Part shown: in pieces, positions 5,826-22,425 of the stretch
Layout of the letters: each line of letters starts with the position of its first letter
How positions within the stretch are numbered: position 1 is the stretch's first letter
Origin: a virus
Direction: 5' to 3' (one strand)
Length of the DNA: 24,091 bases
IMG/VR virus record: IMGVR_UViG_3300022074_000371
Span: 1 to 24,091 of that record
Translations under genes and position numbers: made by a program
Notes under the pieces: generated by a model
Seen by the model: the letters and a program-made list of their open reading frames with translations, nothing else
Told to the model about the DNA's origin: nothing
Databases searched by the model: none

Positions 5826-8720
5826 ATGGTGGAAAATAATCCCTATGCAGAGTTTATCCCTACAAAAACAGATGAAATAGGAGGGTTAGGATTAGAAGAC
5901 AATCCCTATGCAGAGTTTATTCCTGTTGATGAATCTGGTTTTCAAGGAACTAGACTAATAGAGGGAGTGGTTCCAGCTTTAAATTTTCCTAGTTTTACGC
6001 AACCAGTTTACTTGGATATTGACGATAAAGACGGTCAAAAAATAATTTATATGGGTGATTCTCCTTTCAAGGAAGATTATTCTCCAATTGAAAATGAAAA
6101 TGAAAAATCTTTTTTTTTAGAAAGTTTTTTAGGATTTGACGTAAGAGAGCAAGTCTCTAGTGAGAAAAAAAAGGAGTATGATACCTACATTCAAGGCTTA
6201 GTAGATGAAGTAGGGTTGGAGGCATACTTTCCAAAAGAGGTAGCAACTATTACAGGATCAATATCAGGTCCTTTAATTTTAAATTATTTTGCAAAAAATC
6301 CTGACAAAATTCCAAAAACAGGATCAGGTGCAGTGGCTTTTAAAACAGTTTTTCAAAAATTATGGGATTTTCAAAAAGCAACCATTGATAAACTTCCTAT
6401 TCCTGAGAAATATAAAAAACCAGTTAAAAAAAGATATATATTAGGTGCTATTGCAGCAGCAACACTAGCTGGCACAGGTGGCTTTGCTTATGATACCTAC
6501 AGCGATTATTTAGATGGAGATGAAGAAACAATAGACGAAATTATAGCGAAGCTTCCTGAGAATTTAAAAACAGAAGGTATGAACGAATTAATTGGTTTAG
6601 GAATTTTAAAAACTCTTGGAGTGGGTAAGAATAATATAATTTTAGCTAATGACGCTGTTAAAAAAAAATTAAAAGATTTTTATGAAGTAGGAGTAAAACC
6701 AATTTTAGCAGATGTTGCTGAAGAGTCAGGTACATATGCACAAGCTTTTTTAAAGTCTTTTGGTAGGCTACCTTTAGTTGCTGACAGAGCAGGAGCATTT
6801 ATTAAAGAACAAGGACCTATTATTAAAGATAAGATAGACAAGATGATCAGTGCTTTTGCGCCTAGGTCAGGTAAAGACGCTACAACTACTTTTTTAGAAT
6901 CAATGCTTAAAGGTAGAGCTGAGTGGAAAGCAGTAACAGGAGCTGCTTATGACAACTTTTATAGACAAATAGATGAATTATTTGGTAAGGGAACATCTAT
7001 TTTTCCTATGATAAAAACACGATCCAATCTTATTGACTTTATAAGTAAGGCAGATAAACAAGCTTCAGGAGTTTTAAAAGATACTCCTTACTATAGGTTT
7101 GCTAAAAAATTTTTAGAAAACTCTAAAGGAAAAAAACTTACCATAGACGATTACAAATTTTATAAAGATGAATTAAATGACATTTATAACTCACTTCCTT
7201 ACGAGGATAACACCACTAGAGCTTTAATAGACGGTATTAAAACTGATTTTATAGAGGACCTAGGTTACGTAACAGCCACTGAAGGAGGAGCATTCACAGT
7301 AAATCAAGCAGGTAAAATTACTTCACAAGTTTTACCAAGAATATTAGATCCAAGTAAAGTAGCCTTACTTAGAGAGTCTAAAAAGTTTGCAGATGATGTC
7401 TTTAGATTTGGAGTAGATAGAAATGGCGCCATGCCTATGGGAAAAGACTTTTTTGATAAAGGTGTTTTTGCAAAAATGACTCAAACCTACAGACAGGGAA
7501 CCGATACAAGTGATTTTTCTAAATTAGTTGGATTTGGTGACGAAGGGTACACCGTTAAAAAAGTTATAGATCTTCCTGGGGCACCTGGAACAAAAATAAC
7601 TCAGACTTATAATGTTAATCAACTATATCAAACTCCTCTCTCAAAAGAAGGAACTCAATATTATGATCAAATATTTAAAAAAGTAATGCAACAATTAAAT
7701 TCTCCCACTGCTGTAAAACAACTTTTTAAATTAACAGGTAACGATCCTAATGTTTTTGGTAGTTTTATTTATAAGCTGATGGACGATAGTATGAACTTAT
7801 CTATAAAAGCTTTAAAATCTTCAGGTGAAAATACTTCTAGTTTTTCTGCTACTAAAAACTTTTTAAACTTTGATCCTGTTAAATTCAAAAATGGTATTTT
7901 TGGAACAAATGATCAAATGAAAAAAGGTGTTATGGCAGCTTTTGATTTATTACATAAAAGAGCACCAAAAGAATTTATATCAGGACAACAATTAGATAAG
8001 CTTTTAAACGTGTTAGTAGCAAGAGGAAATACATTTATTCCTAGTGCGGCAGGTCTTTTAAATAGAAAGCTTTCTATTGGTGCTGTTAATTTGAGCACAG
8101 GGTTATTAGGTATTCTTTTTGGAGGGTTTGTAGGATTAAAATCAGGAGTAACTGCACCAGCTTTATTTTTAAGACTAAGAAGCATGGCTAATATTTTAGG
8201 AGATCCTAAAAAAGCTAGAGCTTTTTACAAAGCGATGGATCAAAACACTAATTATAAAACAAGATACTCTAATATGGTTCGTTTAATAAAGATGTACACA
8301 TCTGATGTATTAAAAGAAAAGTTTGAAGAGGGAACTGAAGCTTATGAACAACATAAAAGAGAGGTAGAGGAGCTGACTAAATTTGGTCAAATTGCTCAAG
8401 AAACTTTAGATAACATGGCTGATGATTACGATGGAGACATATTTGAAGAACAAATGCTTAACGATGTAGAAACTATTAATTCTGCTCCCAAAGAAGAGAT
8501 TCCTATAAGTAGAGGACAGACTGATATTCCTTTAATACAACCTCTTAATATACCTCCAATTGATTTTCCTTCTTTAGGAGGACAAGGTAGTGGAGCGACT
8601 AATCCACAAACAATGGCTGGCTTAGAATCTGTTGGATTACCTTTGTTTAATGCAGCAGAAGGTGGTATCGTGGATCTCTATGAATCAAAAAAGTTTAAAA
8701 AACCACAGGTGGTAGCATAA
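5826..8720 (+). CDS. Large internal-virion/ejection-type protein, 964 aa, with N-terminal NPYAEFIP duplication
   Basis: 964 aa. GGAG sits upstream of the ATG. The N-terminus has two copies of NPYAEFIP (residues 5-12 and 26-33). Short Asn-Pro-aromatic repeats like this are found at the start of some phage internal proteins. Two hydrophobic segments are visible: about 204-223 (YILGAIAAATLAGTGGFAY) and about 754-785 (STGLLGILFGGFVGLKSG), which could insert in the host membrane. Between them is a long helical, Lys/Phe-rich region. The C-terminus ends with AEGGIVDLY and a basic tail. No protease or transglycosylase motif is evident. By size and place it could be the counterpart of T7-like core proteins gp15/gp16, but sequence alone does not show homology. 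Confidence 0.75.
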   Translation: MVENNPYAEFIPTKTDEIGGLGLEDNPYAEFIPVDESGFQGTRLIEGVVPALNFPSFTQPVYLDIDDKDGQKIIYMGDSPFKEDYSPIENENEKSFFLESFLGFDVREQVSSEKKKEYDTYIQGLVDEVGLEAYFPKEVATITGSISGPLILNYFAKNPDKIPKTGSGAVAFKTVFQKLWDFQKATIDKLPIPEKYKKPVKKRYILGAIAAATLAGTGGFAYDTYSDYLDGDEETIDEIIAKLPENLKTEGMNELIGLGILKTLGVGKNNIILANDAVKKKLKDFYEVGVKPILADVAEESGTYAQAFLKSFGRLPLVADRAGAFIKEQGPIIKDKIDKMISAFAPRSGKDATTTFLESMLKGRAEWKAVTGAAYDNFYRQIDELFGKGTSIFPMIKTRSNLIDFISKADKQASGVLKDTPYYRFAKKFLENSKGKKLTIDDYKFYKDELNDIYNSLPYEDNTTRALIDGIKTDFIEDLGYVTATEGGAFTVNQAGKITSQVLPRILDPSKVALLRESKKFADDVFRFGVDRNGAMPMGKDFFDKGVFAKMTQTYRQGTDTSDFSKLVGFGDEGYTVKKVIDLPGAPGTKITQTYNVNQLYQTPLSKEGTQYYDQIFKKVMQQLNSPTAVKQLFKLTGNDPNVFGSFIYKLMDDSMNLSIKALKSSGENTSSFSATKNFLNFDPVKFKNGIFGTNDQMKKGVMAAFDLLHKRAPKEFISGQQLDKLLNVLVARGNTFIPSAAGLLNRKLSIGAVNLSTGLLGILFGGFVGLKSGVTAPALFLRLRSMANILGDPKKARAFYKAMDQNTNYKTRYSNMVRLIKMYTSDVLKEKFEEGTEAYEQHKREVEELTKFGQIAQETLDNMADDYDGDIFEEQMLNDVETINSAPKEEIPISRGQTDIPLIQPLNIPPIDFPSLGGQGSGATNPQTMAGLESVGLPLFNAAEGGIVDLYESKKFKKPQVVA
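5838..5920 (+). repeat. 20-bp direct repeat encoding NPYAEFI
   Basis: AATCCCTATGCAGAGTTTAT occurs exactly at 5838-5857 and 5901-5920, 63 bp apart and in frame, giving the duplicated NPYAEFIP peptide. Exact identity at the DNA level, including third positions, suggests either a recent duplication or recombination. Confidence 0.9.
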
Positions 8721-9964
8721 TGGCATATCCTGGTTATCAACCTCCTAATAGAACCAACGTTGGACCTCCCTCTAAAAGCAAAGATCAAATCGCTAGAGAG
8801 CTAGACGTGGCTCGTGGCCGTAGAGAATTTTTTTCAGATAGACCTGATGTATCAGATGACAGAGCATTGAGAAGAATGAAACAGTTCGATGAAATGCGAT
8901 CATTTAAAAATAAATTAATGGATAGTGGAAGAGTATTAAAAGGAGTAAGACCTGATGGTACTGAATATATTGTCAAAAACACAAATACTGGCGAACCTGT
9001 TTATTTAGGAACCACCCCTAAGTTTGATACGAATTCCTCTAGCCCTACATTTGGTCGATACACTTCAACCTCTGTCGCAGATAAGGGAAAGCAATTAGCT
9101 AACTTGTATGGTCCCACCTTTAAAGAAATTGGAAGTGATATTGGTTATGGTCTTGGAAATATTGCTAAAGGTTTCGCTGAAAAAGGAACTCCTTTAATAT
9201 CTTTAATAAAATCATTGTATGGTAAAGGAAAAGATTTTGTCACTCAAGGTATTCCAAGCGCTTTAAGAGGTGAAAGTCAGTTTGTTGTCCCAAGACCTGA
9301 TCCTTTTTCAAGTGGAGCAGATGCAATCGGAGGAGCTTTTGTAGGCCCTACTTTTAATGATCAAAAAATTAATACACAATCTTTAGATAGTGTTTTTCCT
9401 CTGCCTCCAAGTAAAATGTCAAATGAACAATTTGATGAGGAATTTCCTTTTTTACCTGAAAGAACTGTTAATTTAGATAATCCTTTATTCAAACAACAAA
9501 ACTTTCAACCAATTAGAGTGAGTGATATGGATATGACAGGTGTCACTGCTCAAGAAGGTGATCGACCAGTTCTTCCTGAGAATGTCATTCCTATGATGAG
9601 AGTAGGTGAGCCAATGAATATTGATCAATATAAAACTCCTGTTTTACCTCCTGAAGTGACAGATCCAAGAATGTATCAAGGTCAAACTTTATACGCTCAA
9701 AACTTTGGATTACCTTCTTTAAAACAGAGTTATGATTTTTTAAGAAAACCTCAAGTAGAGACTCCTTTAGGTAATTTAAGATTTGATAATTTTTTATCTG
9801 GAAACCCTCAATTAGGTTATGGAAATACTGTTATGATCAACGGTGTTCCTGTCGATCTGAGCGCTACAATAGGTCAAGATCAAATTTCTGGTGGATTAAG
9901 TTTTGCATTTAAAAAAGGTGGAAGTGTAGACAAACACTCTGGTTTAGGTTATAAACTTAAATAA
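8720..9964 (+). CDS. Virion-block protein of unknown function, 414 aa, C-terminal GGSVDKHSGLGYKLK
   Basis: 414 aa, starting in a TAATG overlap with the 964-aa gene. The N-terminus is basic and charged (RELDVARGRREFFSDRPD). The middle is Pro/Asn/Phe-rich without obvious secondary-structure repeats, and the C-terminus ends with KKGGSVDKHSGLGYKLK, another form of the GG motif seen in three upstream virion proteins. No enzyme motif is visible. As last of the big coupled genes before the lysis genes it could be a tail, fibre-attachment or core protein. It holds one 12-mer repeat at 8806. Confidence 0.7.
   Translation: MAYPGYQPPNRTNVGPPSKSKDQIARELDVARGRREFFSDRPDVSDDRALRRMKQFDEMRSFKNKLMDSGRVLKGVRPDGTEYIVKNTNTGEPVYLGTTPKFDTNSSSPTFGRYTSTSVADKGKQLANLYGPTFKEIGSDIGYGLGNIAKGFAEKGTPLISLIKSLYGKGKDFVTQGIPSALRGESQFVVPRPDPFSSGADAIGGAFVGPTFNDQKINTQSLDSVFPLPPSKMSNEQFDEEFPFLPERTVNLDNPLFKQQNFQPIRVSDMDMTGVTAQEGDRPVLPENVIPMMRVGEPMNIDQYKTPVLPPEVTDPRMYQGQTLYAQNFGLPSLKQSYDFLRKPQVETPLGNLRFDNFLSGNPQLGYGNTVMINGVPVDLSATIGQDQISGGLSFAFKKGGSVDKHSGLGYKLK
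8806..8817 (+). repeat. Dispersed 12-mer, copy 3
   Basis: CGTGGCTCGTGG near the 5' end of the 414-aa gene; two CGTGG words 7 bp apart. Confidence 0.75.
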
Positions 9965-10054
9965 ATGAAATTAATTCAATTTATTATAAATATATTTAAA
10001 AGAAAGGTAGAAAAAGATCCCCATGAAGAACATTGGGGCATAGGTGCATCATGA
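9965..10054 (+). CDS. 29-aa peptide coupled to the lysozyme gene
   Basis: ATG directly follows the TAA of the 414-aa gene, and the TGA overlaps the lysozyme ATG as ATGA. The peptide starts MKLIQFIINIFKRK, a short amphipathic hydrophobic stretch plus basic residues, then DPHEEHWGIGAS. The ribosome-binding site is weak, but the exact stop/start joints on both sides argue for a real gene. Placed immediately before an endolysin that lacks its own export signal, it could help lysis, for example as a very small holin-like or membrane-active peptide. That is inference; at about 11 hydrophobic residues it is too short to be a classical holin. Confidence 0.6.
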   Translation: MKLIQFIINIFKRKVEKDPHEEHWGIGAS

Positions 10055-10500
10055 TTGAAATTACAGATGAGTTAAGAGCTAGAGTCACTTCTGCGGAAGG
10101 AATTGTTGACCACGTATATTTAGACAGTTTAGGTAAAGCCACGATTGGCATAGGCCACCTCATTCAACCACATGAAAGAGATAGATTTCCTGAAGGAAAA
10201 AAAATATCTAGAGAAGAAATAGATGAACTGTTTGATTTAGATTTAAATAGAGCAGCAGCGGGAGCTGATGTTTTAATTGAGGAGTGTATTGGTCACGATT
10301 TGCCTACTCATATAGAGCATGTGATCGTTGAAATGGTTTTTCAATTAGGAACTCAAGGTGTTCGAAATTTCTCCAAAATGTGGAAAAATATGAGAGTCAA
10401 GAAATGGAAAGATGCGGCTATCGAAATGAAAGATTCTAGGTGGCATAAACAGACCACCAAAAGATGTGAGCATTTAGCTGAAATAGTAGCTAATACTTAA
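10051..10500 (+). CDS. T4-type lysozyme (endolysin, GH24)
   Basis: 149 aa. It hydrolyses the MurNAc-GlcNAc bond of peptidoglycan to release progeny phage. The catalytic triad of the T4 lysozyme family is visible with exact spacing: Glu16 (SAEG), Asp25 (YLDSLG) and Thr31 (KATIGIGH), matching the E-9-D-6-T spacing of T4 Glu11/Asp20/Thr26. The C-terminal half keeps the family pattern FQLGTQGVRNF and SRWHKQTTKR. I choose ATG 10051, because it forms ATGA with the preceding small gene; a longer frame from TTG 10033 would add six residues without support. There is no signal peptide, so a holin or membrane-active partner is expected. Its stop overlaps the convergent - gene by 4 nt. Confidence 0.95.
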   Translation: MIEITDELRARVTSAEGIVDHVYLDSLGKATIGIGHLIQPHERDRFPEGKKISREEIDELFDLDLNRAAAGADVLIEECIGHDLPTHIEHVIVEMVFQLGTQGVRNFSKMWKNMRVKKWKDAAIEMKDSRWHKQTTKRCEHLAEIVANT

Positions 10501-14593: not shown

Positions 14594-15674
14594 GTGCGTA
14601 ACAAACCCTTTCTTTATGTTTTTCTCTTAACTCATGTGAATAACCACCAAAAGTTCTTATTTTAGTTTCACCTTTTTCTAGTCTTTTTAATTCTTTCTCA
14701 TAATCTTTCTTTCTATTTTGTCTATTATGAGTCGTTGGTCTCCATTTTTCAGGATGAGCTTCTCGATACTCACCAAAACGAGGATGTGCTGTTTTAGAAA
14801 AGAAACGATGACCGAGGACCGTGAATTGTTTTGCGACTGCCTCAGACAAACGAACGCCTAGCCCTAAACCTTGAAAATCAGGAAGTATCACTGTCCTGTG
14901 TTCCCTCCACGCTTTTTCTTTGATTGTTCCTGAGGGAAAAAAGATAACTGATGAAAATCCGACTGGAGTTCCGTTCCATGTTGCGATCCAACATCGTGTA
15001 GCTGTACTGATGTTTCCTGTGAGATAGTGATGCTCAGCGAAGTATGACCAAATTTTGTGGGAACAAGGAACGACTTCCAAAACAATCTTGGGTCGCCTAA
15101 GTAACCCCCTTGTCACCACCTTGCTTGAGCTTGTATCAAAAACCCAATCAGGTTGTAACCAATCAATGATGTCATAATGACATGAAGCAAAGACAACATT
15201 CTTAATATTTTTATTTCTAATAAACTTTTGCAAAGCATTCGAACAAGACTTAGCCACATTACGATCTACAACACTTGTAAATTCATCGATAACTGCATTA
15301 TCTTTTATTCTTCTAGCTAAGTCAGATCGAAATCTTTCTCCTGTACTTAAAACGTGATAAGGTCTCATCCAAGAAGGAATAGAATTAAATCCAACGGAGG
15401 ATAGTCTGTCTTGAGCTTCCTCAGGGTTTTCAAAGTGAGAACAAACTGCTTTATCTTCTTCCCAAATTATATTTTCCTCTTCTCCAAATTGTTTTAATAA
15501 GCTTGACTTACCACTTCCTGAGGCCCCTACAATCAATCCAATATTGAAATCTTGTGTAGGTTTTTGAAACTCAGGTAATGTAAATTCTGTTTGACCGTCA
15601 AATTGATAATCAAACATTCTACTAATTTCATCTGTGATGTAATCAGTTTGTACTTGTGAAGTTAGTTTTTTCAA
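14577..15674 (-). CDS. ABC-type ATPase fused to a GNAT acyltransferase-like domain
   Basis: 365 aa. Residues 44-185 are an ABC-type ATPase: Walker A GASGSGKSS (50-58), signature LSTGE (109-113), Walker B AVIDEF (127-132) and H-loop His166 (SCHYD). There is no transmembrane segment. Residues about 198-310 look like a GNAT fold: HHYLTGNIS (215-223), VGFSSVIFF, and the acyl-CoA loop PDFQGLGLG (265-273), followed by SKTAHPRFGEYR. The C-terminal 50 residues are basic. The start is a TTG overlapping the primase stop (TTGA) with GAGGAG eight bases upstream; the next ATG is Met20. The HHYL plus GNAT layout recalls Mu Mom-like DNA-modifying GNAT proteins, which is inference. Alternatives are protein or small-molecule acylation. 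Confidence 0.85.
   Translation of the reverse strand: MKKLTSQVQTDYITDEISRMFDYQFDGQTEFTLPEFQKPTQDFNIGLIVGASGSGKSSLLKQFGEEENIIWEEDKAVCSHFENPEEAQDRLSSVGFNSIPSWMRPYHVLSTGERFRSDLARRIKDNAVIDEFTSVVDRNVAKSCSNALQKFIRNKNIKNVVFASCHYDIIDWLQPDWVFDTSSSKVVTRGLLRRPKIVLEVVPCSHKIWSYFAEHHYLTGNISTATRCWIATWNGTPVGFSSVIFFPSGTIKEKAWREHRTVILPDFQGLGLGVRLSEAVAKQFTVLGHRFFSKTAHPRFGEYREAHPEKWRPTTHNRQNRKKDYEKELKRLEKGETKIRTFGGYSHELREKHKERVCYAHEFIG
14813..14824 (+). repeat. Dispersed 12-mer, copy 6
   Basis: CGAGGACCGTGA, antisense to the GNAT part of the fusion gene; partner of copy 1 in the 19-base near-identity. Confidence 0.75.
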
Positions 15675-17227
15675 AATGGTATCTCCTCTTCTTTAACTTC
15701 TTTTTTCATATCAGGAACATCTAGCTCCACATCTTCTATGTTTAATTGCTTTATTTTCCATAGTCTCATTCTTGTGTTTTTAACACTCCTGATAGTGTCG
15801 TCAGCATTATATTCTTCTTTTAATCTCATTGTTACCCAAGGTCTTGACTCTTTAAAATCATTTCTCTTTAAATGATCCATTAAGTCCTTGAGAGCAAAAT
15901 AAGTAAATCCTTCTTCAGTGTAAGATTTACCTAAAAATATATCTGCTATTGTCAGAGCCTCGCCTTGATGTAAACAAAACTCTTCTAACAATTCTTTAAA
16001 TTCACCCTTCTTTGTAACTTCCTCAGGTGGATGATCAATGGAAATAGATTCAAATAAATCACTATATGTTTGATTCCATTCTGCTGAACTCATGTTCATA
16101 ATACCTTTATTAAGCTGTTCTAAACAGGCTTGAATAATTTTTTTATGAGTCATCAAGTCCTCTGTGTTAGCTATCTCTATTCTTCTGTCGTCTACATTTA
16201 AAAAATATCTAGGTGGATCTGACTTATATACTTTTAAATCAGAATAAACTGGATGATCTCTATCCCCCTCACTGCCAATACCAAATTTTCTTTTTTTACA
16301 AAGTCTTTTATTACATAAAGACTCAATGGGAGGTTGAGAACAACGATACATATATTTCGGTGCACCATTGTTATCGCTTTGACTTACTTGTTTTATCACT
16401 ATCAAAACTTCATCAGACTTTAATGGAGGCTCAATATAGTTTCTGTTGTATTCTTCGACTAATTCCTTGTAATTATCAGGATCAGCTTTACGATAGTAAA
16501 CGCCTACATTGAACAGAGCGTTATTACGTGATCCGTCAGAAACACCCTGTTCAGTTAGTATTTGTAGGCATGGAGGTCCGTCTTTAATAACCTCGTTCTT
16601 GAAATCGGTTTTAATCGATTTGAGAGCACCAACAACGAGACTATCGTAGTGAGAAAGAAATTCTTCTAAACTTAACGCATTACCGTTTTGATCTAGTCCA
16701 TATCGACTTCTTCCATGGTAAGGCAAATTAATCCAACTGCCTGTATCTCTTTTTTCTTCTCCCTCTCTTTGATACAGTTCAATTTGTTTTGGAAAGACTT
16801 CAGCTTTTGGATAGCCCAAAGCTGTTGCCATTTCACTTAATTTAGTTTGTATATCTTTTGCTGTGACATACGTTTTTGTAAATAAATATAAATGTGCTCC
16901 ACCACTTTTTGATAGACACATGATTAAGGGAAACTTTTTTTGTTTTACTATTTTCAGTAAAGCTTTGTGATCAAGAGGATAAACATCAATATCAATAACA
17001 CCAAATTTACATTTATCTTCGTCGTTAATAGGAACAATACCCATGGCAGGATATTCTCCTTTTAAGTGTTGTTCAAATTTTTCCAAGGTCGGTGGCTCGT
17101 GGACCGTGGTCATTTTAGCCTCTACTTTTAATCCTTCTTGTGGCTCGTTCTTTTTATAAAAGACACCATGAGCCCTCTCAAGACCTGTAAAGACTTCTTT
17201 AAACTTTTTTACTAATTCTAACTCCAT
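15671..17227 (-). CDS. Archaeo-eukaryotic-type (AEP) primase
   Basis: 518 aa, predicted to lay down primers for the family A polymerase. AEP hallmarks: catalytic DxD in GVIDIDVYPLD (Asp79, Asp81), the SGGAHLYLF motif (108-116) with His112, and a third block GSWINLPYHGR (163-173). Residues about 230-285 (SDGSRNNALFNVGVYYRK, EVLIVIKQV) resemble the helical PriCT-like domain that follows many phage AEP cores. Cys296, Cys305 and Cys310 near KKRKFGIG may bind metal. There is no fused helicase domain, unlike T7-type primase-helicases. The acidic C-terminus ends KEEEIPF, very like an SSB tip. GAGAGG precedes the ATG, and a structured RNA leader fills the 140 nt upstream. Confidence 0.88.
   Translation of the reverse strand: MELELVKKFKEVFTGLERAHGVFYKKNEPQEGLKVEAKMTTVHEPPTLEKFEQHLKGEYPAMGIVPINDEDKCKFGVIDIDVYPLDHKALLKIVKQKKFPLIMCLSKSGGAHLYLFTKTYVTAKDIQTKLSEMATALGYPKAEVFPKQIELYQREGEEKRDTGSWINLPYHGRSRYGLDQNGNALSLEEFLSHYDSLVVGALKSIKTDFKNEVIKDGPPCLQILTEQGVSDGSRNNALFNVGVYYRKADPDNYKELVEEYNRNYIEPPLKSDEVLIVIKQVSQSDNNGAPKYMYRCSQPPIESLCNKRLCKKRKFGIGSEGDRDHPVYSDLKVYKSDPPRYFLNVDDRRIEIANTEDLMTHKKIIQACLEQLNKGIMNMSSAEWNQTYSDLFESISIDHPPEEVTKKGEFKELLEEFCLHQGEALTIADIFLGKSYTEEGFTYFALKDLMDHLKRNDFKESRPWVTMRLKEEYNADDTIRSVKNTRMRLWKIKQLNIEDVELDVPDMKKEVKEEEIPF
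17098..17109 (+). repeat. Dispersed 12-mer, copy 7
   Basis: CGTGGACCGTGG, antisense to the 5' part of the primase gene. Confidence 0.75.
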
Positions 17228-17240
17228 ATTAACCTCTCAA

Positions 17241-17368
17241 ATTAATAGCCTCTCCTTTAATTAGATTGGGGCATGGTCCGAAAGGAGGCTCGAAAAAACC
17301 ACACCCCAACCGATTAAGAGTGGGAATCGGAGGATAAGACCACTCTTAACTTTACGCGGGCTATTAAT
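17241..17368 (-). ncRNA. Three-way-junction structured RNA, candidate cis-regulatory leader of the primase gene
   Basis: The 140-nt gap before the primase folds into three stems around a junction. Closing stem: ATTAATAGCC (17241-17250) with GGCTATTAAT (17359-17368), 10 bp. Second stem: TTAAGAGTGG (17314-17323) with CCACTCTTAA (17340-17349), 10 bp. Third stem: 17266-17276 with 17299-17309, 11 pairs. Its two non-canonical pairs are G-U on the - strand but C-A on the + strand, so the - transcript is favoured. A competing hairpin CCGATT/AATCGG (17310-17315, 17325-17330) is mutually exclusive with the second stem. Loop bases 17281-17289 are complementary to the AAAGGAG-like run at 17258-17248. I do not recognise a known riboswitch. 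It could also be a DNA-level cruciform such as an origin. Confidence 0.7.
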
Positions 17369-18210
17369 CAGAACGGTATGTCGTCACCATTCTGCGAGGC
17401 ATTCCCCTGTGGGGAAACTTTGTCATCATCCTGTGTCGGAGTGATTTCTATGTCACCACTGTGAATAGATTTTTCAAATTGAATAGCGTCTTCAACTATT
17501 GCTTGAACATTTTTAAGCCCAAGTTCATCAATCCATTCATTCTCAGTAACGACCCAACCATGCCAAGAACCCTTTGAGTTCTTTTCTTTGACCGTGGATA
17601 GCGTATATGCACGAGCAAAGTCTTTTGGTTGGTAAATTTCATCACCTTCAACACGTCTCTGATTGGACATTAATGAATTCCATGTCCTTGATTTTTTTAA
17701 CTGTGTTGATTTCATTTTAATAATCGCTTTACTCCAAGCACCACCGTCTTCGAGTACGATTACATAATGTTCAGCAGTATTCTCAATATAGGTATCTGGT
17801 TTTCCTACAAAGCGTTCTTTGTTATCGTCTCCACGAACAACTTTTCCTTCCATTTGGAATTTTTGAAATTGTTCTGGTGTATAGATATTTACTGGAGCAC
17901 CAGACCCTTCTCCACGTTCAGCCCATTCTACAAATCTTCTACGATAGTAAACTGGTAAAACGTTTATGGAGGCGTAGACTTTGTTAGTAACAGTATTAAA
18001 AATCTGTCCTAATTTTGCGCCTTGGATATACTTACCGTCATCTTCTTCAAGCTGAGGTGCGCCCTTACTTAAAATATTAAAGTAAGGAATTTGATAATCT
18101 TCAGCTTCTCTTTTTGAGAGAGAGGGACCTGCCTTTAATAGACTACTGATAGTCGCTACTTCGCTACCCTTATTCTCTTTCACTACTTGTTTTTTCACTG
18201 TCTCTGTCAT
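17368..18210 (-). CDS. Putative single-stranded DNA-binding protein with SSB-type DDIPF tail
   Basis: 280 aa. The end is SSB-like: a polar linker (TPTQDDDKVSPQGNASQNG) and then GDDIPF, matching the acidic, Ile-Pro-Phe tip by which bacterial SSB recruits partners. The body has many aromatic and basic residues (PVYYRRRFVEW, SRTWNSLMSNQRR, GSWHGWVV) suited to ssDNA contact, but I cannot show an OB fold from sequence alone, and it does not obviously match T7 gp2.5 or E. coli SSB. It lies between a coiled-coil protein and the primase in the replication operon, abutting the upstream stop with AAAGG before its ATG. SSB function is the best reading. Confidence 0.72.
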   Translation of the reverse strand: MTETVKKQVVKENKGSEVATISSLLKAGPSLSKREAEDYQIPYFNILSKGAPQLEEDDGKYIQGAKLGQIFNTVTNKVYASINVLPVYYRRRFVEWAERGEGSGAPVNIYTPEQFQKFQMEGKVVRGDDNKERFVGKPDTYIENTAEHYVIVLEDGGAWSKAIIKMKSTQLKKSRTWNSLMSNQRRVEGDEIYQPKDFARAYTLSTVKEKNSKGSWHGWVVTENEWIDELGLKNVQAIVEDAIQFEKSIHSGDIEITPTQDDDKVSPQGNASQNGDDIPF

Positions 18211-21883: not shown

Positions 21884-22221
21884 AAGAGTTCCTGAACAAA
21901 AAACATATATCAGGAACTGTCTCCGAATATTCAGCAGTTAATAAACTTTTACAATTAGGATTTTTAGTTTTTAAAAACGTAGCGCCTCAAGGTATGATTG
22001 ATTTAATTGCGATCTCTCCAGATAATGAAACTTTTCGCATTGATGTAAAAACAATTTCTAGAAGAACTAAGAAAACAAATTATAGAGAAGAGGGAGACCG
22101 AATTTATAGGACCCCCACAAGTGAGCAAAAAAAATATGATGTTGTGTTGATGATCGTGGACCGTGATGAATTTAAAGTTCACCCAATTCGTTCTAAATTG
22201 TCAAAGTGGTTAAAACTTTAA
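21880..22221 (+). CDS. PD-(D/E)XK-type nuclease, Holliday-junction-resolvase-like
   Basis: 113 aa from GTG 21880, chosen because it forms GTGA with the previous stop; TTG 21856 would add eight residues. The nuclease signature is visible: early Glu in GTVSEYSAVNKLL, then GMIDLIAI (first acidic residue), then FRIDVKT with the D-x-K catalytic pair, and a basic stretch SRRTKKTNYRE. The helix-strand order and size fit Hjc/VRR-like or T7 endonuclease I-type resolvases that cut branched DNA. A role in resolving replication or packaging intermediates is likely, but a restriction-like or host-DNA-degrading function is not excluded. The stop overlaps the convergent gene by 12 nt and a 12-mer site lies at 22155. 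Confidence 0.8.
   Translation: MKEFLNKKHISGTVSEYSAVNKLLQLGFLVFKNVAPQGMIDLIAISPDNETFRIDVKTISRRTKKTNYREEGDRIYRTPTSEQKKYDVVLMIVDRDEFKVHPIRSKLSKWLKL
22155..22166 (+). repeat. Dispersed 12-mer, copy 8
   Basis: CGTGGACCGTGA in the nuclease gene; 22148-22166 matches the 19-base copy 1 region at 16 positions. Confidence 0.75.
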
Positions 22222-22425
22222 AAGATAGTCTTCTAAAACACCTGAGCTAACACAAGTTAATTTCATTTCTACGTCTTCGATTTTTGATAGCTCTCCCAAA
22301 ATCAGGTTATAATGTTGTTGACAACTTTCTAAAGAATTATGAATAACCTCAGAACCCATTCTAACACAACTTGTTTCAGTGCTAGAGTAGACACAGGCCC
22401 AACCAATCAAGAAAAATTTAAGCAT
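22210..22425 (-). CDS. Small secreted or membrane-associated Cys-containing protein, 71 aa
   Basis: 71 aa. The N-terminus MLKFFLIGWACVYSST is hydrophobic with Lys3, like a short signal sequence or a weak lipoprotein signal (Cys11). The remaining part has Cys20, Cys35 and Cys58, which could form disulfides outside the cytoplasm. There is no obvious ribosome-binding site. It may be a periplasmic phage protein, for example in lysis or superinfection exclusion, but this is conjecture. It stands alone on its strand. Confidence 0.6.
   Translation of the reverse strand: MLKFFLIGWACVYSSTETSCVRMGSEVIHNSLESCQQHYNLILGELSKIEDVEMKLTCVSSGVLEDYLLKF

Follow-up and report, generated by a model that had tools for sequence, protein, structure and literature searches.

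What is the role of a 29-residue open reading frame that is fitted exactly between a virion gene and a lysozyme gene? The window, i.e. the whole stretch of DNA analyzed (24,091 nucleotides), is a 24-kb viral fragment whose polymerase is nearest to those of HTVC023P-type pelagiphages and similar 57-62 kb phages (47-52% identity). The features that bear on the question are:

8720..9964, + strand: upstream gene of 414 aa, ending a run of large genes taken as virion genes (no family match)
9965..10054, + strand: 29-aa micropeptide ORF including the stop (family member found ahead of the lysozyme at 69 of the best 80 loci out of 240; in-frame pN/pS 0.28)
9968..10015, + strand: codons 2-17, predicted basic amphipathic helix whose sequence varies within the family (helical moment; AlphaFold2 helix 2-19 in the relative L111)
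10016..10045, + strand: codons 18-27, conserved tail D-P-H-E-E-H-W-G-I-G (alignment of 23 members; pN/pS 0.21 over the ten motif codons)
10051..10054, + strand: ATGA stop/start overlap of peptide and lysozyme, read in the sequence
10051..10500, + strand: GH24 (T4-type) lysozyme of 149 aa without a signal sequence (PF00959, phrog_7)

The frame translates as MKLIQFIINIFKRKVEKDPHEEHWGIGAS. Its ATG at 9965 abuts the TAA (9962-9964) of the upstream gene with zero spacing, and its TGA (10052-10054) overlaps the lysozyme ATG at 10051, confirming the exact fit between virion gene and endolysin that an earlier note on this DNA had described. That note had named recurrence of the peptide before related endolysins as one check on its idea, and non-conservation as its refutation. 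The peptide does recur: of 80 related IMG/VR loci, taken as the best 80 of 240 lysozyme relatives, 69 have the tail immediately ahead of the lysozyme. All ten motif codons are present in 68 of the 69, the motif in L003 being interrupted by the contig end. Most loci are near copies of one another, and these counts are not independent events. For the window-like form (19 distinct DNA sequences), pN/pS is 0.28 in the peptide frame versus 1.15 and 1.60 in the other two frames; for the ten codons of the tail, compared across 23 distinct sequences, the values are 0.21 versus 1.81 and 1.39. Low values in frame and high values in the other frames indicate that the frame is under purifying selection and that the peptide, rather than the DNA, is conserved. 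Since the frame precedes the lysozyme in most of these loci and substitutions are mainly synonymous in the peptide frame only, the ORF is, judged by sequence comparison, a real gene beyond chance.

The micropeptide family appears to be undescribed within the literature and family-model searches made, because no paper with the motif was found and no family model matches. The string HWGIG is absent from the open-licence literature searched. Searches with 23 members gave no NCBIfam match and best E values of 0.19 in Pfam and 0.12 in PHROGs, the window peptide alone had no match in Pfam or PHROGs, and one relative had no match in the PDB. A tblastn search of the peptide against named phages found nothing; the match of a longer relative to named phages was rejected as a chance hit, as were the partial matches (approximately 30% of the query) from an 86-base DNA search. 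Seven regions read from named pelagiphages with related lysozymes did not contain the tail motif. Conservation of the family extends widely among marine phages, many of whose genomes carry it next to the lysozyme.

The peptide has two parts. The motif D-x-H-x-x-H-W-G-I-G ends one or two residues before the stop; all 23 aligned members share its D, H, W, G, I and G without exception, and the second H is almost invariant. The N-terminal half has no fixed sequence, yet it is cationic and amphipathic across members. In the window peptide, residues 1-17 carry a net charge of +4 and the helical-moment z is +1.37. The mean z was +1.58, versus -0.47 when the angle was set to 170 degrees as a control, for 24 hand-picked representatives, a set that includes one segment (L250) taken out of a longer frame and omits the L092, L093 and L114 types. 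In these types a basic gene upstream runs into the frame, for which no convincing start or amphipathic helix is seen. The AlphaFold2 model of a 33-aa relative (L111) contains a helix at residues 2-19 with a mean pLDDT of 70.6, and a tail of low confidence (pLDDT 54-62). By moment and model, the N-terminal half has the predicted cationic amphipathic helix expected of a disruptin. Its hydrophobic run spans about 10 residues with lysines at either side; hydropathy scans did not flag the peptide, and neither they nor the sequence revealed a transmembrane segment. The spanin hallmarks, a lipobox or an N-terminal transmembrane anchor with a periplasmic domain, were not found in the peptide sequence. 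Thus, the earlier description of the peptide as short and amphipathic stands, while basic applies to the N-terminal half only, the C-terminal part being acidic and histidine-rich.

The downstream gene matches PF00959 (E 4e-12, 46.9 bits against a cut-off of 22.3 for the Phage_lysozyme domain) and the phrog_7 endolysin family (E 4e-22). Its residues E16, D25 and T31 are spaced like the catalytic triad of T4 lysozyme. No N-terminal hydrophobic stretch was seen by eye, in agreement with the earlier note, which had argued from this lack of a signal sequence that a membrane-active partner was needed. That argument loses its force in the relatives, which have other candidates. Among the matches listed, 117 motif loci have 700 or more bases before the peptide, and in 36 of these a 3TM-type gene of one of three kinds is located no more than 1.2 kb upstream. 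The first kind is the PF11351 / phrog_3427 holin, and the remaining two have matches to phrog_2524, a family of unknown function, and are not called holins by Pfam. L136 directly shows the gene order holin-peptide-lysozyme. A search of 19 records for PF11351 found it in 4, among them the peptide-lacking G005 and two close relatives of the window that carry the peptide, G014 (85.6% identity over 18.8 kb) and G015 (90.5% over 15.1 kb), where the holin lies approximately 27 kb from the peptide. No holin was found in the window itself, which is a fragment. Because PF11351 holins occur in peptide-bearing relatives, the peptide is probably not the missing holin but an accessory, rather than the sole membrane-active lysis gene. 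The small 3TM holins (GTA_holin_3TM, PF11351) are thus often its upstream neighbors in the same cassette, and differ from it in their length (137 aa) and several transmembrane segments, whereas the peptide has none. The idea of a minimal lysis factor keeps its link to the lysis genes and loses the form of a classical transmembrane holin, for which the segment is too short and charged.

Two further sets of small ORFs were observed near these genes. In L234 (G014:44262-44357) and L248 (G015:36721-36819), a 31-32-aa single-TM peptide, a further unannotated micro-ORF among the lysis genes, lies directly upstream of the PF11351 holin. The window also contains, at 22210-22425 on the minus strand, an ORF of 71 aa that has cysteines and a hydrophobic stretch at its N-terminus and by eye resembles small secreted ORFs adjoining the lysozymes in L136 and HTVC200P.

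The reading that we favor, with a probability of roughly 0.4, is that the peptide is a trans-acting accessory of the lysis module that acts at the membrane surface, beside a separate holin and endolysin. It would be made by stop-start reinitiation from the virion gene, as the TAAATG junction suggests, and its own stop would feed the lysozyme start at the ATGA junction. The amphipathic cationic helix would lie on the membrane surface, and the tail, DxHxxHWGIG, would serve as a nearly fixed recognition or active segment. The membrane-bound peptide would then engage a conserved envelope component and help or time envelope failure, assisting the separate holin and this endolysin without replacing the holin. 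The partner of the tail would more likely be a host component than a single phage partner, because the tail stays constant even as the holin types upstream are swapped and lysozyme identity falls to approximately 31%. A non-holin accessory encoded next to an endolysin has a parallel in Mu releasin gp25 (DUF2730), described in PMC9239132 as an integral membrane protein of 99 aa that acts on SAR endolysins; in contrast, a SAR domain is lacking in the lysozyme here, and a transmembrane segment in the peptide.

The strength of the link to the lysozyme was gauged from the tail alone. The pattern D-x-H-x-x-H-W-G-I-G was scanned over viral contigs without lysozyme information, and 119 of at least 120 matches were examined. 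Among the matches listed, a lysozyme lies directly downstream of the tail in 116 of 119 loci (77/80 and 39/39), the exceptions being L116, L163 and L137; tails with YWGIG behave like those with HWGIG. The L137 match was rejected as a chance match. The same pattern has 13 matches in 84,980 prokaryote genomes, none of them C-terminal (within two residues of a stop). The lysozymes of L163 and L116 are elsewhere in the genome, and that of L163 adjoins a 3TM-type gene. In the L163/L251 clade, the peptide lies between the primase region and an exonuclease, unlinked from the lysozyme; it is present at this replication locus in 5 of 9 close relatives, and in 5 of all 44 loci examined. This location argues for a trans-acting product and against a coupling-only role, and it is also awkward for a role in lysis. 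As a separate observation on replication genes, the window primase (15671-17227, minus strand) and a putative ssDNA-binding-type protein (17368-18210, minus strand) both end in an acidic IPF tail resembling the tip of SSB, to which proteins of repair and replication are recruited.

The peptide is absent from 11 of the 80 loci (L024, L025, L062, L065, L068, L069, L071, L072, L076, L079 and L080). On a 45-row lysozyme tree, which omits 24 loci without a usable lysozyme row and merges rows of more than 93% identity, its presence or absence changes 6 times, 5 of these changes being forced by well-supported branches; only the best-80-of-240 loci on this tree were sampled irrespective of the peptide. 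Given these absences and at least five to six changes, the peptide is dispensable or replaceable. Such repeated gain and loss, together with the replication-locus clade and a tail that stays constant while 3TM-type genes and lysozymes change, would also suit a host-takeover or superinfection micropeptide that rides with the lysozyme, its helix bringing the tail to a target in the host that has nothing to do with lysis. We regard this as unlikely, though the most serious of the alternatives, since the lysozyme neighborhood found in 116 of 119 listed matches extends across distant lysozyme clades and a 3TM-type gene often stands on the other side of the peptide.

Regulatory leader peptides such as TnaC are encoded by tiny ORFs that end at a downstream start and are conserved near the C-terminus, and the peptide resembles them in both respects. 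As a cis-acting leader or coupling cistron, it would be inert itself, and its translation, perhaps pausing at the tail, would set lysozyme output. This fits the stop-start overlaps with the lysozyme (ATGA, TAATG), the confinement of conserved residues to the last 12 codons, and the Shine-Dalgarno sites that relatives without the peptide have sometimes gained before the lysozyme (L024, L079). We nevertheless rate it a little less probable again. In other loci without the peptide (the L062 type, L068 and similar), the lysozyme overlaps the virion gene and couples to it directly, and in L257, L306, L314 and L312 another micro-ORF intervenes between peptide and lysozyme. The peptide of the L163/L251 clade, unlike a leader, is not beside the lysozyme at all. 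RNA structure around the lysozyme start showed no excess over shuffles (z 0.79, -0.06, -0.62 and -0.08), and there was no Rfam match at gathering score. A candidate RNA element was rejected on the lack of excess structure and on a CCCC-AUG/CAU-GGGG hairpin that is lost when H codons become CAC. The simple coupling cistron that the earlier note had offered as its other option is therefore unlikely, the tail being kept at the protein level.

By analogy, the nearest idea to the peptide is the phiKT-type disruptin, reportedly from Holt et al. in 2022. In PMC12819732, the phiKT disruptin is described as a short amphipathic helix peptide; judged by that description, the two share small size, phage origin, an amphipathic helix and a lysis context. 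A cationic peptide of this kind, disrupting the outer membrane where spanins are lacking, would agree with the cationic helix, with the lack of a lipobox spanin candidate in a crude scan that covered the window and six genomes, and with the approximately 13% of such phages that have no identifiable spanins according to the same source. However, we consider it improbable: conservation sits in the nearly invariant tail and not in the variable helix. The peptide-lacking G005 showed no lipobox spanin in that scan either, so that there is no anticorrelation, and G001 keeps the peptide despite a spanin-like gene (TM and coiled coil) near a holin-type gene.

That the peptide is a minimal holin, the only hole-former of the phage, is suggested by an amphipathic product adjoining a lysozyme without a signal sequence, but is very improbable given the PF11351 holins of the peptide-bearing G014 and G015, the holin directly upstream in L136, and the lack of any stretch with the length and hydrophobicity of a transmembrane helix. 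That the ORF is an accidental frame with no function, as its extreme shortness might suggest, has next to no likelihood against pN/pS values of 0.21-0.28 in frame and 1.15-1.81 in the others and conservation in 69 of the 80 loci (best 80 of 240).

The region around the tail also contains overlapping frames. In some members, the tail codons are shared with a second micro-ORF, read in the +1 frame, which continues into a CPxC-x-LD-x-CxC zinc-ribbon-like peptide, e.g. MNMKDIGESVVEICPVCELDVEDCDCLE. It was seen at L257:2207-2292 and L251:7580-7670 and in L262, L264, L305, L306, L311, L312 and L314, and so accompanies lysozymes of two distant clades and also occurs at the replication locus; a TAG within the motif closes the +1 frame in the window. 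In L093, L098, L127, L114, L120 and L153, a small lysine-rich gene read in a different frame extends with its 3' end into the peptide frame. These overlaps hold A-rich, slippery-looking runs, such as GCA AAA AAG before the stop in L114, and the motif in these six loci may be reached by frameshifting or an internal start. Stop-codon read-through from the virion gene was rejected, the frame relation to the upstream gene differing between groups.

More tentatively than the lysis role itself, and on balance doubtfully, the family could represent a new class of mobile micropeptides, in which a replaceable amphipathic anchor presents an invariant DxHxxHWGIG tail to a conserved host envelope target, and which move between lysis cassettes and a replication locus, the tail codons sometimes starting the +1 zinc-ribbon-like micro-ORF. 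ORFs this short are usually missed by gene callers, and the family has thus remained without a name despite adjoining the lysozyme in many marine phages. If the peptide is a lysis accessory, it would add an extra part to the holin-endolysin scheme in phages without a recognized spanin. If the tail has a host target, a pull-down with its invariant ten-residue segment could search for that target directly.
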